IMG/VR virus record: IMGVR_UViG_3300028024_000026
Span: 1 to 21,555 of that record
DNA length: 21,555 nucleotides
Strand: one strand, 5' to 3'
Source of the DNA: a virus
The notes beneath the pieces were generated by a model. The model had not been told where the DNA came from. It searched no databases and saw only the letters and a program-made list of their open reading frames with translations. The translations under genes were made by a program, and so were the position numbers. Below are positions 3,953-21,555 of this stretch, piece by piece; positions within the stretch are counted from its first letter, which is position 1; each line of letters opens with the position of its first letter.

Positions 3953-4403
3953 GGTCGGTCAAATCGGTTAGATCGACCGGAACGGGTTGCGTCTTGATCG
4001 GGCCGCCGTCCTTGCCTGTGTGTTCTAGACGATGCCGGTTGGTGTATGCGTCGCCAGCCTCTTTCGCTACCTGCTCGAGCAATTGAGCGGTCAGGGACAA
4101 ATTGCCCTGCTTCTCGGTGCGCTCAATCATTCGTTGGAGCGTGCGCAGGCGGACGGCCCGATGTGAGACTCCGATCAGGCTCGTGTCTTCCAGAAACGTC
4201 TTGCGGGTCTCGGCGAATATCAGGCGGAATTTCTCGCTCAGTGCCGAGCCGGCGCGCTTGTTCGGGTCATAGCGCTCGCATTGCTGGGGCGAGACGATTA
4301 CGCCAAATTCCTCGTTGACGCTCTTCGCGGCCTGAGAAGGCGTATCGAAGCACGCTTGCGCCTGAACGATGTGCAGTTTGATGTGTTCCGGCAGAGCGGC
4401 CAT
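3897..4403 (-). CDS. terS: Terminase small subunit, DUF2280 family
   Basis: 168 residues beginning [20 protein letters not shown]. The HTH-like segment [16 protein letters not shown] is followed by [17 protein letters not shown], then a helical part with [13 protein letters not shown], all hallmarks of DUF2280. In this type of phage, DUF2280 proteins sit directly before the large terminase and are taken as the DNA-recognition subunit that selects the pac or cos site. The gene overlaps terL by 56 bases in another frame. The ribosome site is weak (TTGAAAG, well upstream). Family recognition is from memory; the role follows mainly from gene order. Confidence 0.85.
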
Positions 4404-4431
4404 ATTCGTTAATCTTTCAACGTGCTGTCAA

Positions 4432-5082
4432 CTAAGCGGCGCGCAGCAGGCAAGTCCCGCAGGCTTGAGCGATATTCAATTGACCGATCTCGGGAGCCTT
4501 GCTGGCGGCTTGCACTAATTTGGCTGTTTCTCCTGCCGCAGCACCTACGCCATAGCGCCGGACAATGCCGACGAATTCTTCGACATCGTGTGAGCGGATG
4601 CCAATTTTTGGGTCACCATCCTGGGTGAAAGCCGGGGCACCGAATGCGTCAACCTTCTGCGCGATGTGATAAAGCTCGTGCTCAACGAGGGAGCACCACT
4701 CGATGTCTGAACACTCTTTGGCGTAAAAGGCGTCGAACGTGATCAGGTAGGCCGGGACTCGCCCGAACCATTCCTTCATCTGCTGCTCTTGGCGCCCTTT
4801 CTGCCACGCGCTGGCGCGAAACGTTACTTCCTCGCACTGGCCGACTACGCGGCGCATCTGGCGAGTGTTTTCTGCCGCGGCCCATAGGTATTGAATGTCT
4901 GCGCCGATCAGGTGCGCGTGGTCTTTGTTGTAGAGCAGCGAACTCTCAGCCATCAGAGTTTTGGCGATCCACTCTTCTACGCCGTCAGCCGGAACGAAGT
5001 GTTTCGTCCAATTTGAGTCATCGAAGAGCAGTTCCGGCGGCATCGGCCGGGTTCTTTCTGGCTGAATCAGGCTTTTGCGCAT
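4432..5082 (-). CDS. Putative phage metallopeptidase (HExxH)
   Basis: 216 residues with a zinc-protease signature HELYH (H135, E136, H139) in SLVEHELYHIAQK and a plausible third ligand downstream (H165 or E168 in SHDVEEF). It matches the small 'putative phage metallopeptidase' family found near terminase genes in proteobacterial phages. The substrate is unknown; possible roles are prohead maturation or host-protein cleavage. It is the first gene of the packaging block, 28 bases before terS. M1 at 5082 is used here, but M14 (5043) is an alternative, since neither has a strong ribosome site. Confidence 0.75.
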   Translation of the reverse strand: MRKSLIQPERTRPMPPELLFDDSNWTKHFVPADGVEEWIAKTLMAESSLLYNKDHAHLIGADIQYLWAAAENTRQMRRVVGQCEEVTFRASAWQKGRQEQQMKEWFGRVPAYLITFDAFYAKECSDIEWCSLVEHELYHIAQKVDAFGAPAFTQDGDPKIGIRSHDVEEFVGIVRRYGVGAAAGETAKLVQAASKAPEIGQLNIAQACGTCLLRAA

Positions 5083-5214: not shown

Positions 5215-6060
5215 TCATGGCGCGCTGCCGGCGTTATTAGCGGTCACTATGCGGCTTGACCGGGCAGCGGCGCGTTTGTGGCCTGTGCCTAGCTGGCGAA
5301 GCGGCCGGTGGCGCCGGGTCTGCGCGAAAATAAAGAAGCCCGGCGTGTATGCGCTACGGGCAAAGATCGACTTTCATCGACCCGAGGAGAATAGGTTGAA
5401 GGCAAGCGCTACAAGCGACGGCGTTGTGCGCTCGTCCTGCGCGGGGCTCTGGTGGTTCCCGTGTTGGTGAAGCCTCACCAGACACCGAGGCTATTAGCAA
5501 GGTGCCGCGGGGTCGATCCAAAGCGCTGTCAGACCTTCACGACTGAGGTCTGGCATCCCTAACAGCCGGATCGCCGATTCGAACGGCAATCCCACCACTC
5601 GCCAGTGAACTGCTTGCGCTAGGTTGCGCAGCCAAACCTCATGCGTGAAGGCTGAGAATGGCCGGTGCTGATCTCCGGCGCCACACTGGGAGGTTACTCG
5701 TCCGCCGTCGGGCCGTATCGTTTCCGGCGCATCAGCCTGCGCATTCACTCTCACGACTGGCGACTGTGCTTGCGCCCGATTACTCGGTTCGTATCATTTC
5801 AACGATGCAATCGCCATACGTGAAAGCGGTCCGTTGTGCCGCAGGAGAGGACCAAGCTCTAGTACTATCGGCGATCGCGACCAGTTTCGTTGGCCCTACG
5901 GACGCGCTTTGGGCTTATGAACTGGCGCATCACCTGAGACTCGGACCACGAGGGCCGGGCGGCTTCACCCGATTGCTCCTGCCTGCTGCCGTTAGTATTA
6001 GTTGCGCGTCCAGCCCGTAGTCGAGCTGCGGAGCCTATCCGCTGACTGGAACGCGCGGGG
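5215..6060 (+). ncRNA. Gene-free structured region, candidate large RNA
   Basis: About 980 bases (5083-6065) hold no convincing gene but many strong hairpins. One pairs 5220-5229 with 5263-5273 (one bulge), with an inner helix 5241-5246/5257-5262. Others are 5311-5319/5338-5346; 5405-5414/5424-5432 (one bulged C); and 5461-5470/5475-5485 (one bulge). A nested set pairs 5514-5519/5568-5573, 5525-5529/5562-5566 and 5530-5537/5545-5552. Near the end, 6004-6013 pairs with 6046-6056 (one bulge) around 6028-6032/6038-6042. Internal wobbles (5410-5428, 5464-5481, 5529-5553) are U-G only on the plus strand, opposite to the flanking genes. No promoter or terminator is clear, so the ends are approximate. 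An alternative is a structured leader of the late minus-strand message. Confidence 0.4.
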
Positions 6061-16746: not shown

Positions 16747-16775
16747 TTGACGACAGTAACGCCGCGCATTAGCAT
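16747..16775 (+). promoter_or_regulatory. Promoter for higBA
   Basis: The -35 TTGACG (16747-16752, five of six bases), a 17-base spacer and the -10 TAGCAT (16770-16775) end seven bases before the higB ATG. The toxin message would therefore be leaderless or nearly so. GTTAATAAC just upstream is a possible HigA half-operator. Confidence 0.6.
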
Positions 16776-16782
16776 ACTTGAC

Positions 16783-17061
16783 ATGATCCAAACGTTCCGG
16801 TGCGCCGACACTCAAACCCTTTTTGCTGGTCAGCGGGTAGCGCGTTTCGTCAATATTGAGGCGGTCGCCATGCGGAAACTTGCAATGCTGCACCGAGCTG
16901 CCGTGTTGGATGATCTCAGAATCCCGCCCAACAATCGTCTGAAGGCATTGAATCGAGATAGGGCCGGATCACATAGCATCCGTATTAATGACCAGTTTCG
17001 GGTGTGCTTTCGATTCGATGCTGGAAATGCTTTCGATGTGGAAATTGTTGACTACCATTAG
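16783..17061 (+). CDS. higB: HigB-type toxin (RelE superfamily mRNA interferase)
   Basis: 92 residues from the ATG at 16783. The pattern MIQTFRCADTQTLFAG near the start, then IPPNNRLKALNRDRAGSHSI and FRVCFRFDAGNAFDVEIVDYH, is that of HigB toxins, which cut mRNA on the ribosome. The ATG at 16747 is the longer alternative but lies in the promoter. The toxin gene comes first and the antitoxin gene second, as usual for hig. It lies between cI and the second operator cluster, the rexAB position in lambda, so it is expected to be expressed in lysogens, stabilising the prophage or excluding other phages. Confidence 0.92.
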   Translation: MIQTFRCADTQTLFAGQRVARFVNIEAVAMRKLAMLHRAAVLDDLRIPPNNRLKALNRDRAGSHSIRINDQFRVCFRFDAGNAFDVEIVDYH

Positions 17062-17077
17062 CCAAAGGAGTGGCACT

Positions 17078-17380
17078 ATGAACCGCGAAGTCGCCTACCC
17101 GACGCCAGGTGAAATCTTGACCGAGGAATTCCTGGCGCCAATGGGTATCAGCATGTACCGCCTTGCCAAAGATATCGGCGTGCCGCAGCAGCGTATCGGT
17201 GACATTGTGAACGGGCATCGCGCCATCACTGTGGACACGGGCCTGCGCCTGTCTCGGTATTTCGGAACCAGCGACGAGTTCTGGACTGGTCTGCAGCTCG
17301 ATTTTGACACTGTCACCGCGAAGGCTGAACTTGCGGACCGACTGGCCGGTATTCCTCGCTTTGAGCCGGAAGAAGTCTGA
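17078..17380 (+). CDS. higA: HigA-type antitoxin
   Basis: 100 residues from the ATG at 17078, with AAAGGAG eight bases upstream; the frame open further upstream lies inside higB. The Xre-type helix-turn-helix spans about 25-65 (MYRLAKDIGVPQQRIGDIVNG), followed by DTGLRLSRYFGTSDEFWTGLQ, typical of the HigA/VapI family. It binds and neutralises HigB and represses its own operon. It starts 16 bases after the higB stop, so the two are co-transcribed. Confidence 0.93.
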   Translation: MNREVAYPTPGEILTEEFLAPMGISMYRLAKDIGVPQQRIGDIVNGHRAITVDTGLRLSRYFGTSDEFWTGLQLDFDTVTAKAELADRLAGIPRFEPEEV

Positions 17381-18182: not shown

Positions 18183-18195
18183 CAACATCGTAGCA

Positions 18196-18862
18196 CCCGC
18201 CCCGGCAGAGCCGGATCGCGGAAGGATCTTTAAGCGAATCTAGCAGAGATACCCGCAAGGGAGCGCTCAACGCCCTACCGCTGAAAAGATCGGGGCCTAT
18301 CAACCAAGTGCCTGGCTCCCAGATGGGGCTATAGAACACTTGGAAGATCGATAACACCGCAGCAGACCGTGAGCCGGTTCACCGGAAGTAGCACGGCTGC
18401 TGCGAAGCAGTTTTCAAGAGAACGCACCGCATTCCCTGCCACAGTAGTCCGGCGTAAGGCGTTGCTTGGTCATGGGACTTTAGCCCTGACTTCACGGCAC
18501 GTACACCAGTAGGAAACTCCCTGGTATAGCGTGGTGTGTTCTCTTGAAAGTTGCATTGAATTGTCCTCCTCGAGCGCGAAAGCGTGTGGATGCCCTGCTA
18601 ATCGAGTAAGGCAGGGACTGAAGGTGCCACCAGTAATAAAGGCGAACGACGTACGTCTAGTAGGCGCTTAGCTCCGTCCGACTTGCCGCCGTAAGCGGCT
18701 CCGAATACCCACGAGAGGGAATGATCCGATGCGCTTTCTTGCCAGCACATCGGGGACCCAATAAAGCGACAAGATTAACCGAGGCGCTTGGCAGCTGGAA
18801 AATCGGGGATTGGTCATAGCTAAACTGCCACTAATTTATCTCAGTGCGCTAGGCATTGAGGA
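18196..18862 (+). ncRNA. Candidate large structured noncoding RNA (~0.65 kb)
   Basis: No ORF fits 18183-18880, but helices fill it. A 20-bp helix pairs 18411-18430 with 18531-18550, with three G-U pairs and no mismatch. Another pairs 18358-18365 and 18367-18371 with 18392-18404, capped by CCGG-UUCA-CCGG. Hairpins include 18202-18214; 18252-18261 (GCAA loop); 18304-18310/18337-18343 with an inner helix 18314-18319/18325-18330; 18574-18585 (GAAA loop); 18593-18599/18610-18616; 18685-18699; 18725-18731/18748-18754; and 18840-18847/18853-18860. Bases 18569-18573 can pair with loop bases 18602-18606. All wobbles are U-G in the plus sense. Size and phage setting recall the large ornate RNAs GOLLD and ROOL; identity is unproven and the ends are approximate. 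Confidence 0.6.
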
Positions 18863-19969: not shown

Positions 19970-20302
19970 ATGATCGAATTGAAGGGCTGGATCTGGGGAA
20001 AGAAAGAAGTCTACGAACGCGAAGTGAAATACATGTTCTTCGAAGGCGGTGGCTCGAATTACTTCAGCGAGCAAGGGTACTTTCAGGTTTGCGAACACAC
20101 GGTTGAGGTTGAGTTGCCAGAAACATTCAATCCGGTCGCGGCCCAGGTGTCCGCACTGAATGCCAAGAAGGAAGCGATTCAGCGGCAGTTCACCGACCGC
20201 ATTCGGGAAATCAACGACGCGATTTCGAACTTGCAGTGCTTGACGTTTGACCCGTCTGGCACCGCTTCTTACGAAGTCGCATCAGATGAGATTCCTTTTT
20301 GA
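19970..20302 (+). CDS. Hypothetical protein with SSB-like C-terminal tail
   Basis: 110 residues. The N-terminal half is beta-rich with aromatic and Gly residues (MIELKGWIWGKKEVY, FFEGGGSNYFSEQGYFQV). It is followed by a helix (VSALNAKKEAIQRQFTDRIREINDAI), and the protein ends ...YEVASDEIPF. The last residues match the acidic DxIPF tip of bacterial single-strand-binding proteins, which docks many repair and replication enzymes. The body does not show a clear OB fold, so it may instead mimic SSB to recruit or block host partners. Ribosome site spacing is long (GGGGG, about 13 bases). Confidence 0.65.
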   Translation: MIELKGWIWGKKEVYEREVKYMFFEGGGSNYFSEQGYFQVCEHTVEVELPETFNPVAAQVSALNAKKEAIQRQFTDRIREINDAISNLQCLTFDPSGTASYEVASDEIPF

Positions 20303-20310
20303 TAGACGCT

Positions 20311-20332
20311 GGCCCGGCGTAATGGGCCTTTT
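20311..20332 (+). terminator. Likely rho-independent terminator
   Basis: GGCCC (20311-20315) and GGGCC (20324-20328) with an eight-base loop are followed by TTTT. The stem is short but all GC. It is nine bases after the stop of the preceding gene and would end the pL operon unless antiterminated. Confidence 0.55.
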
Positions 20333-20335
20333 CAA

Positions 20336-20471
20336 TGGATCGCTTTGTACGGCGTGGAGCCTTCACGAGCTAAGAAGCGCCGAGTTGGTCAAGGTACCGG
20401 GCCTGCCGTACCTTGACTGGCGTAGAGGACAACGAGTCTTAGGACAGAATCCTCGTTTGCAGAGCGATCCA
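20336..20471 (+). ncRNA. Four-way-junction structured RNA element (136 nt)
   Basis: The closing helix pairs 20336-20349 with 20458-20471 over 14 unbroken pairs, two of them U-G wobbles in the plus sense. Three hairpins radiate from the junction. They are 20350-20354/20378-20382 (with inner 20358-20360/20369-20371); 20388-20397/20408-20417, a perfect 10-bp stem; and 20431-20436/20452-20457. Together they form a cloverleaf-like fold. The wobble sense supports transcription on the plus strand. It lies between a terminator and the secreted-protein gene, so it could be a small RNA or a 5' regulatory leader. It is not a tRNA: no T-loop, anticodon arm or CCA is present. Confidence 0.6.
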
Positions 20472-20526
20472 CTGAACAGCAGTAACGGCAACGTGACCGA
20501 CTCACGCACATACGAGGAAAATAAAA

Positions 20527-21258
20527 ATGAAACGCAGCATCTTGGCAGTATCAATTCTGGCTTTAGCAATCAGCGCACCGGCGTTCGCCGAGCCATCCGC
20601 GGTCACTGCAGGCGGCTTTTCCAACATTAATGTGAATACCGCGATTAGCGGCAACGTCACGGCAGTCAACGGCGGTTTCAGCGAGTCGCAGGCTACGCAA
20701 AATCAGACGGCATTCGGCAGCATCACATCGACGGCTACCAAAGGCACAACGTCTATCGGCGGCCAGAACGTTCCGACGCAGACGGTCGGTACGGTTGGCA
20801 CGGTCGGGGTGACGTCGAACAGCAGCGCATGGAACTATTCGACTGGCAGTGCAGGCGGCAGCGCGTCAGTAGTAGGCGGCGCAGGCGCGATTGTGAGCGG
20901 GACCAACGCTATCCAGGGTGTGGCAGCTGGCAGCGGATACGCCGGAGTAGGCGCGACCGAAGCGATCACCGCGGGCACGAACGAGGGCGGTTATACCGCA
21001 TCGGTCGCCAATGCTAACTTCGGGTCGACACAAACATACGACAGCATCAAGTCGGGCAGCACGGCCTCGGCTGGTGTTAGCTCGGCTCTGGCAGGTGGCG
21101 CTACTGCTAGCAACACATCGGGCGTCATGACGGTGAACGGCGCAGCACTCAGCACGCCGGATACGCTGTCGATCGGCAACAGCGGAACCTTCACGGCAAC
21201 GGGTACCGCGAGCACGGGTGTCAACACCAACGCAACGGTTGGCGATAACCACGAATAA
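20527..21258 (+). CDS. Secreted Gly/Ser/Thr/Ala-rich protein
   Basis: 243 residues with a clear Sec signal peptide (MKRSILAVSILALAISAPAFA, cut before EPS). The mature part has almost no charged or large residues and is built of Gly, Ser, Thr, Ala, Val and Asn, with loosely repeated GxxxA/TxG units (VGTVGTVGVTSNSS, SVVGGAGAIVSGTN). Such composition suggests an extended beta-structured or adhesin-like exported protein. GAGG lies upstream of the ATG. No family is recognised. Export from a phage gene fits either lysogenic conversion of the host surface or an envelope-phase late function. Confidence 0.75.
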   Translation: MKRSILAVSILALAISAPAFAEPSAVTAGGFSNINVNTAISGNVTAVNGGFSESQATQNQTAFGSITSTATKGTTSIGGQNVPTQTVGTVGTVGVTSNSSAWNYSTGSAGGSASVVGGAGAIVSGTNAIQGVAAGSGYAGVGATEAITAGTNEGGYTASVANANFGSTQTYDSIKSGSTASAGVSSALAGGATASNTSGVMTVNGAALSTPDTLSIGNSGTFTATGTASTGVNTNATVGDNHE

Positions 21259-21318: not shown

Positions 21319-21555
21319 ATGAAAAAGAATATCGCAGCAATCGCACTCATGTGCGTAACGACTGCAGCATTTGCCGATTTGACGTCGACCGTAAGCTCGA
21401 ACGTCGCAGCTACGACGTCCGCGCAGAATGCTGGCAATGCTCAAAACATCAACTTCAACAGTCCAGGCAACACAGACGCGACGATCCACAGCGCACCGAC
21501 GGTCTACACGCCGTCGATGCCGGGAAGCTTTGCCCAGGCAAATTGCATGATGGGC
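21319..21555 (+). CDS. Secreted protein, N-terminal part (cut by window edge)
   Basis: 79 codons from the ATG at 21319, with GGGG seven bases upstream, are open to the window end. A short signal peptide (MKKNIAAIALMCVTTAAFA) is followed by an Asn/Ser/Thr/Ala-rich stretch like that of the previous gene, then APTVYTPSMPGSFAQANCMM. The latter recalls small exported phage proteins found near lysis or DNA-transfer genes, but the family is not certain. It is probably co-transcribed with the preceding secreted protein, 60 bases upstream. Confidence 0.65.
   Translation, partial: MKKNIAAIALMCVTTAAFADLTSTVSSNVAATTSAQNAGNAQNINFNSPGNTDATIHSAPTVYTPSMPGSFAQANCMMG

Follow-up and report, generated by a model that had tools for sequence, protein, structure and literature searches.

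A structured RNA of a temperate phage and its kinship to a domain of a large modular phage RNA

Results

Gene setting of the small RNA

The DNA analysed (hereafter named the window) is a virus contig of 21.6 kb (21,555 nucleotides) from a temperate tailed phage. The terminase of this phage shows 76% identity to that of Burkholderia phage BgManors32, and the window also encodes a repressor and a HigBA-like pair, consisting of a HigB-like toxin and an HTH antitoxin (16747–17380), which lies between the repressor and the early genes. Beyond about 17.6 kb, the genes in the remainder of the contig are directed rightwards, and a large and a small structured RNA are found in this part of the window (Table 1). 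The gene that follows the small RNA and the gene adjacent to it (20527–21258 and 21319–21555) both encode proteins with apparent signal peptides that are rich in Gly, Ser and Thr. Neither a family match nor a homologue was found for these two proteins, and a search for relatives of the first one (243 aa, apparently secreted) gave none. Reverse transcriptase, sought as the companion of a Retron or DRT non-coding RNA, was absent among the neighbouring genes that were scanned.

Table 1. Coordinates of the RNA features and flanking genes in the window
Feature	Position	Strand	Remarks
Large structured non-coding RNA, without D3 slot	18183..18860	+	z −3.2; blocks common to L026/L027, L023 and L024
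boxA-like element GATCTTTAAG	18225..18234	+	5′ part of the large RNA; read from the sequence, putative function
D4 domain of the large RNA	18406..18555	+	Long closing helix; aligned with L024, L044, L049 and L053
Upstream gene	19970..20302	+	110 aa, phrog_2479-like; stop codon 4 nt 5′ of the RNA unit
Whole conserved RNA unit	20307..20479	+	173 nt; 5′ element plus four-way-junction domain
Invariant 21-nt element CGCUGGCCCGGCGUAAUGGGC	20307..20327	+	Hairpin GCCC/GGGC
Outer extension of the closing helix, 5′ side	20331..20334	+	UUCA/UGAA, pairs with 20473–20476; invariant in the three homologues
Closing helix P1, 5′ arm	20336..20349	+	14 bp with 20458–20471, two G-U pairs; two double-sided changes
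Hairpin P2 (CGGCG...CGCCG)	20350..20382	+	Junction motif CGGCGUGGAG common to the large-RNA domain; stem pairs invariant
Hairpin P3	20384..20421	+	All seven distal pairs kept, each with a double-sided change in at least one homologue
Hairpin P4	20425..20454	+	Pairs invariant
Closing helix P1, 3′ arm	20458..20471	+	Pairs with 20336–20349
Downstream gene	20527..21258	+	243-aa protein, apparent signal peptide

Fold and extent of the small RNA

A sequence-only reading of this DNA had placed at 20336–20471 a 14-bp closing helix with two G-U pairs, enclosing three hairpins that included a 10-bp stem, and had considered such a fold unlikely by chance. The coordinates and the fold were correct, and the second statement was borne out by shuffling: the minimum free energy of the 136-nt segment was −64.9 kcal/mol, compared with −43.7 ± 3.8 kcal/mol for the shuffled sequences (z −5.57), and none of the 200 shuffles folded as well. 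The 10-bp stem is the perfect core of the middle hairpin of the junction, which extends to 14 bp when its G-U pairs are included. Two closing helices of this strength that enclose 80–240 nt are present on the + strand of the window, one in this segment and the other at 18403–18558, against a mean of 0.4 per shuffled window, and only 2 such helices with an equally dense fold were seen across 40 shuffled windows. The fold of the small RNA is genuine, and this is a structured non-coding RNA.

The extent of 136 nt given by the earlier reading holds for the junction. The unit itself is bigger (20307–20479; −80.6 kcal/mol, z −6.40), as the closing helix continues outwards and conservation in the homologues L045 and L090 runs from CGCUGG to CUGAACAG, beyond which the flanks differ. 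In the window, neither a promoter-like nor a terminator-like site was found to delimit the small RNA.

Covariation in close homologues

Homologues were sought by exact-pattern scans of IMG/VR. Two contigs containing the whole unit (L045 and L090) were obtained, which gives three close copies including the window, and the four-way junction is kept in all of them. The distal pairs of P3 are all kept in the three sequences, and each of them (7 of 7) shows a double-sided change in at least one homologue. In P1, double-sided changes affect 2 of the 14 pairs; near the junction, one pair of this helix is broken in L045 and several in L090. P2, P4 and the 5′ hairpin do not vary among the three sequences, and covariation gives no independent test of their pairs. 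The differences in length between the window and its homologues are not multiples of three; no reading frame is kept, and hence the sequence is not coding. The sequence-only reading had named homologues with uncompensated broken pairs as the observation that would tell against an RNA structure. This was checked, and the compensatory changes support a structured RNA.

The − strand of the 136-nt segment also folds, although worse than the + strand (z −3.4). This and the long terminal inverted repeat would fit a palindromic mobile element of the MITE or REP type, or a chance palindrome beside a terminator. However, no target-site duplication was seen, blastn with the RNA gave no match in phages or plasmids, the scans of IMG/VR gave only the three close copies, and compensatory changes lie inside the unit. 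These changes disfavour the explanation, which is hardly credible. Host-genome sets centred on an Enterobacter genome and on one bearing DUF4148 returned no copy; these sets included no genome with a known copy, and hence this result is uninformative.

Neighbouring genes

The RNA unit begins 4 nt past the stop codon of the preceding gene in both the window and L090. The genes before and after the RNA differ among the window, L045, L090 and the more distant relative L008.

A rival explanation is that the RNA acts in cis, as a leader that folds within the 5′ untranslated region of the following gene and controls its translation or stability. The RNA lies close 5′ of a start codon in the cases examined (47 nt in the window), and the same small gene (MGK..FERLDRQ) is preceded by separate structured RNAs in L023, L024 and L032. 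Nevertheless, any RNA in a compact phage operon precedes some gene, the next gene is unrelated across the window, L045, L090 and L008, and a related domain sits inside a large non-coding RNA in L040, L042, L032 and L044. A cis-acting leader is therefore unlikely. The sequence-only reading had proposed either a small RNA or a cis-acting leader of the signal-peptide gene. The structured RNA stands, on the evidence of the compensatory changes, whereas a leader dedicated to the secreted-protein gene finds no support, since unrelated genes follow in L045, L090 and L008.

The invariant 5′ element

The 21-nt element at the 5′ end of the unit was searched for by 17 of its nucleotides, and 23 viral contigs were obtained. 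Among the 16 distinct flanks, the four unsearched bases (CGCU) were present in every one, and the bases just outside the element vary. In many contigs the element is followed by a structured RNA that has a separate closing helix. The element (CGCTGGCCCGGCGTAATGGGC) was observed 5′ of diverse structured RNAs in L071, L072, L075, L076, L082, L087, L089 and others, some of them with tRNA-like T-arms. GenBank phages and E. coli genomes gave no full match. The element is a likely candidate for a binding site. A putative alternative fold of the element is an H-type pseudoknot (CGCU/GGCG).

The small RNA had been described in the sequence-only reading as lying after a terminator. An intrinsic terminator (hairpin 20311–20328) was considered and rejected: this hairpin is part of the conserved element, and the U-run is not kept. 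The bases 3′ of the hairpin are CUUUU in the window and L090, AUGUU in L045, and ACC, AAUC or others elsewhere, most other sites having no U-run.

Relationship to the D3 slot of a large modular RNA

L008 contains a domain of 169 nt closed by a 22-bp helix, located shortly 5′ of the start of a homologue of the 19970–20302 gene, which is thus downstream of the RNA in that contig. The 5′ arm of this domain matches that of the window at 24 of 29 ungapped positions, as read from the sequences, and the opposite arm shows compensating changes. The inner part of the window and L008 RNAs is misaligned by MAFFT; this ungapped comparison of the 5′ arms and covariance models were used instead.

Through the motif UUGURCGGCGUGGAG, this domain was also located within the large non-coding RNAs of L032, L038, L040, L042 and L044. 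A covariance model made from the window and L045 (R1) was searched in 520 kb, and matched the D3 domains of L038 (E 2e-6), L032 (3e-5), L042 (7e-5), and L008 and L040 (2–4e-3); the domain of L044 was not found in this search. An independent model made from L040, L008, L032 and L042 alone (R2) was searched in 310 kb and found the window at 20325–20481 (E 9e-7). The small RNA and the D3-slot domain have in common the 5′ junction with this motif and the closing helix, detected by independent models in both directions. Within the D3 set (L040, L008, L032 and L042), 10 of the 44 pairs are changed on both sides (0 of 500 shuffles).

Further matches to R2 in L023, L024, L047, L052 and other contigs are slots that retain the frame GCAGUUUUUCGUGAAUGGCGUUG...CAGCGCCAUUCACGAAG around a different inner part. 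This inner part of D3 varies widely: the window type and the L040 type have GGCGUGGAG and GGCGUAGA in common, not all hairpins. In L049 this exchangeable slot of the large RNA (4422–4509, − strand) is filled by a tRNA-like element with an odd anticodon, the only such element given by ARAGORN, which detected no tRNA or tmRNA in the window. No convincing match to R2 was found in Burkholderia phage Bcep176, a known hammerhead carrier. L033–L036, L039, L041 and L043, obtained in the first pattern search, and L046 were discarded as coding or chance matches. On these sequence comparisons, the small RNA belongs to the family of domains that fill the optional D3 slot of a large modular RNA in related phages, and here it stands alone.

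The large RNA

This large phage RNA is modular, with a size of about 0.7 kb or more, boxA-like elements, several closed domains and the optional D3 slot. Relatives of the large RNA of the window are present in at least ten virus contigs. Its 18183–18425 region shows 85.6% identity to L026/L027, and pieces of it occur in L023 and L024. In the alignment of the D4 domains of the window, L024, L044, L049 and L053, both sides are changed in 10 of 48 pairs. The large RNA gave no Rfam match, and no blastn match in phages (query L040) or plasmids (query L042); blastn did not detect it in the L045 and L090 records either.

The D3-type domain of the window stands alone 1.5 kb downstream of the large RNA, and L008 is split likewise. 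In L032, however, an in-slot D3 is accompanied by a separate small RNA, and L053 lacks the two. Absence from the slot and separate occurrence therefore do not go together as a rule, and the split into a large RNA without D3 and a separate D3 domain is suggestive.

Several other observations were made in these contigs. A 27-nt hairpin near the 3′ end of the large RNA (CCGACTTGCCGCCGTAAGCGGCTCCGA, window 18678–18704) is found exactly in Pseudomonas phage IME307, and the IME307 region containing it matches more than 200 Pseudomonas phages, whose genomes are of several unrelated sizes, as well as some Bordetella phages and one Stenotrophomonas phage. IME307 (L006) also contains RNAs with long closing helices of 22 and 21 bp at 4320–4536 and 5307–5502; the short hypothetical genes annotated over them are probably wrong annotations. 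In L023, repeats of GGTTACTGAATCAGTAACC and its variants are clustered at 1856–2061, in direct and inverted orientation.

The boxA-like element is imperfect in the window and nearer to the consensus in L040, L044 and L006, the best copies being NUCUUUAACAA. The occurrence of boxA-like elements in the 5′ portion of the large RNAs, the early operon position and the invariant 21-nt element found between unrelated flanks in phage contigs are what might be expected if the small RNA were an antitermination element, either HK022 put-like or boxA-type, modifying RNA polymerase or Nus factors and sustaining a long early transcript. Against this, the unit lies in the middle of the operon, away from the early promoter, and its domain is multi-branched, a feature that put is not known to need. 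Furthermore, the 21-nt element gave 0 matches in HK022 at up to 3 mismatches, and put was rejected as a homologue. We consider an antitermination role quite unlikely.

Hammerhead ribozymes beside relatives

Type II hammerhead cores with all the conserved residues and the three stems were identified in five distinct copies. The hammerhead is located 5′ of the large RNA in L008, L023, L040 and L049, and 80 nt 3′ of the small RNA in L045. The core pattern did not occur in 9.7 Mb of shuffled sequence. No type II hammerhead was found in the window. The L040 copy scored 24.4 of the 37 bits with RF02276 (E 0.017), under the Rfam cut-off, and the L045 copy was unreported by the Rfam search. In L024, L042 and L044 the hammerhead 5′ of the large RNA is replaced by a different conserved structure (CTGTTCGTAGCG...CAGTGCGAATAGCAC), which could be another processing element. 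Hammerheads are known in intergenic regions of phages, including Burkholderia phage Bcep176, and those of prophages flank genes, with the cutting of long phage transcripts as their proposed role (PMC3088659).

Discussion

The structure of the small RNA is conserved regardless of the genes beside it, and hammerheads adjoin its relatives. From this we infer a chain of events in which the module would be transcribed as part of the early operon of this temperate phage, which has relatives among Burkholderia phages, and would be cut out of the transcript. The released module would then work in trans as a folded RNA, and probably share a particle or process with the large RNA from the same transcript. 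Overall, we regard it as fairly probable that this structured RNA of about 173 nt is processed out of the early transcript and then acts in trans, perhaps as a partner of the large RNA. The main rivals of such a trans-acting module are the leader for the next gene and the polymerase-modifying element.

A specific form of trans action would be that of a decoy or counter-defence RNA, binding a host defence or RNA-processing protein. The highly conserved core with its variable peripheral stems and the exchange of inner domains, with a tRNA-like element in the L049 slot, are in agreement with this role. However, neither a target nor an adjacent defence gene was found, and we judge a decoy improbable. 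A more elaborate model, put forward tentatively and with considerable doubt, is a modular RNA particle made of interchangeable closed domains, one of which is here a separate RNA that would join the large RNA in trans, with processing by ribozymes in the relatives.

Very large folded phage RNAs are among the least understood RNAs. In the present family, domains are swapped between phages and one of them (173 nt) is small enough to be studied alone, so that the role of large phage RNAs becomes testable on a small molecule rather than on a 0.7-kb RNA.

Comparison with known systems places this RNA apart from the families searched. The small RNA of the window matched no riboswitch, leader or other family in Rfam 15 beyond a chance snoRNA match (10.6 bits), and neither the window nor ten relatives matched the GOLLD or ROOL models. 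The HK022 put RNA is likewise a structured RNA of an early phage transcript; unlike put, the domain described here is far larger and not promoter-proximal, and its 21-nt element is not present in HK022. With regard to the type II hammerheads of prophages (RF02276), copies with a perfect core adjoin the RNAs of the relatives, whereas the 136-nt RNA itself is no hammerhead. No description of domain exchange together with a separate domain was found in the open-licence literature searched, and the RNA family with large modular members is undescribed. GOLLD and ROOL are its nearest counterparts in kind, not in sequence, being likewise large, ornately folded phage RNAs of unknown function. The linker of GOLLD may hold tRNAs (PMC12286853), which resembles the tRNA-like element in one slot of the large RNA described here. 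In contrast to GOLLD and ROOL, the present family has exchangeable closed domains, one of which also occurs as a separate small RNA.
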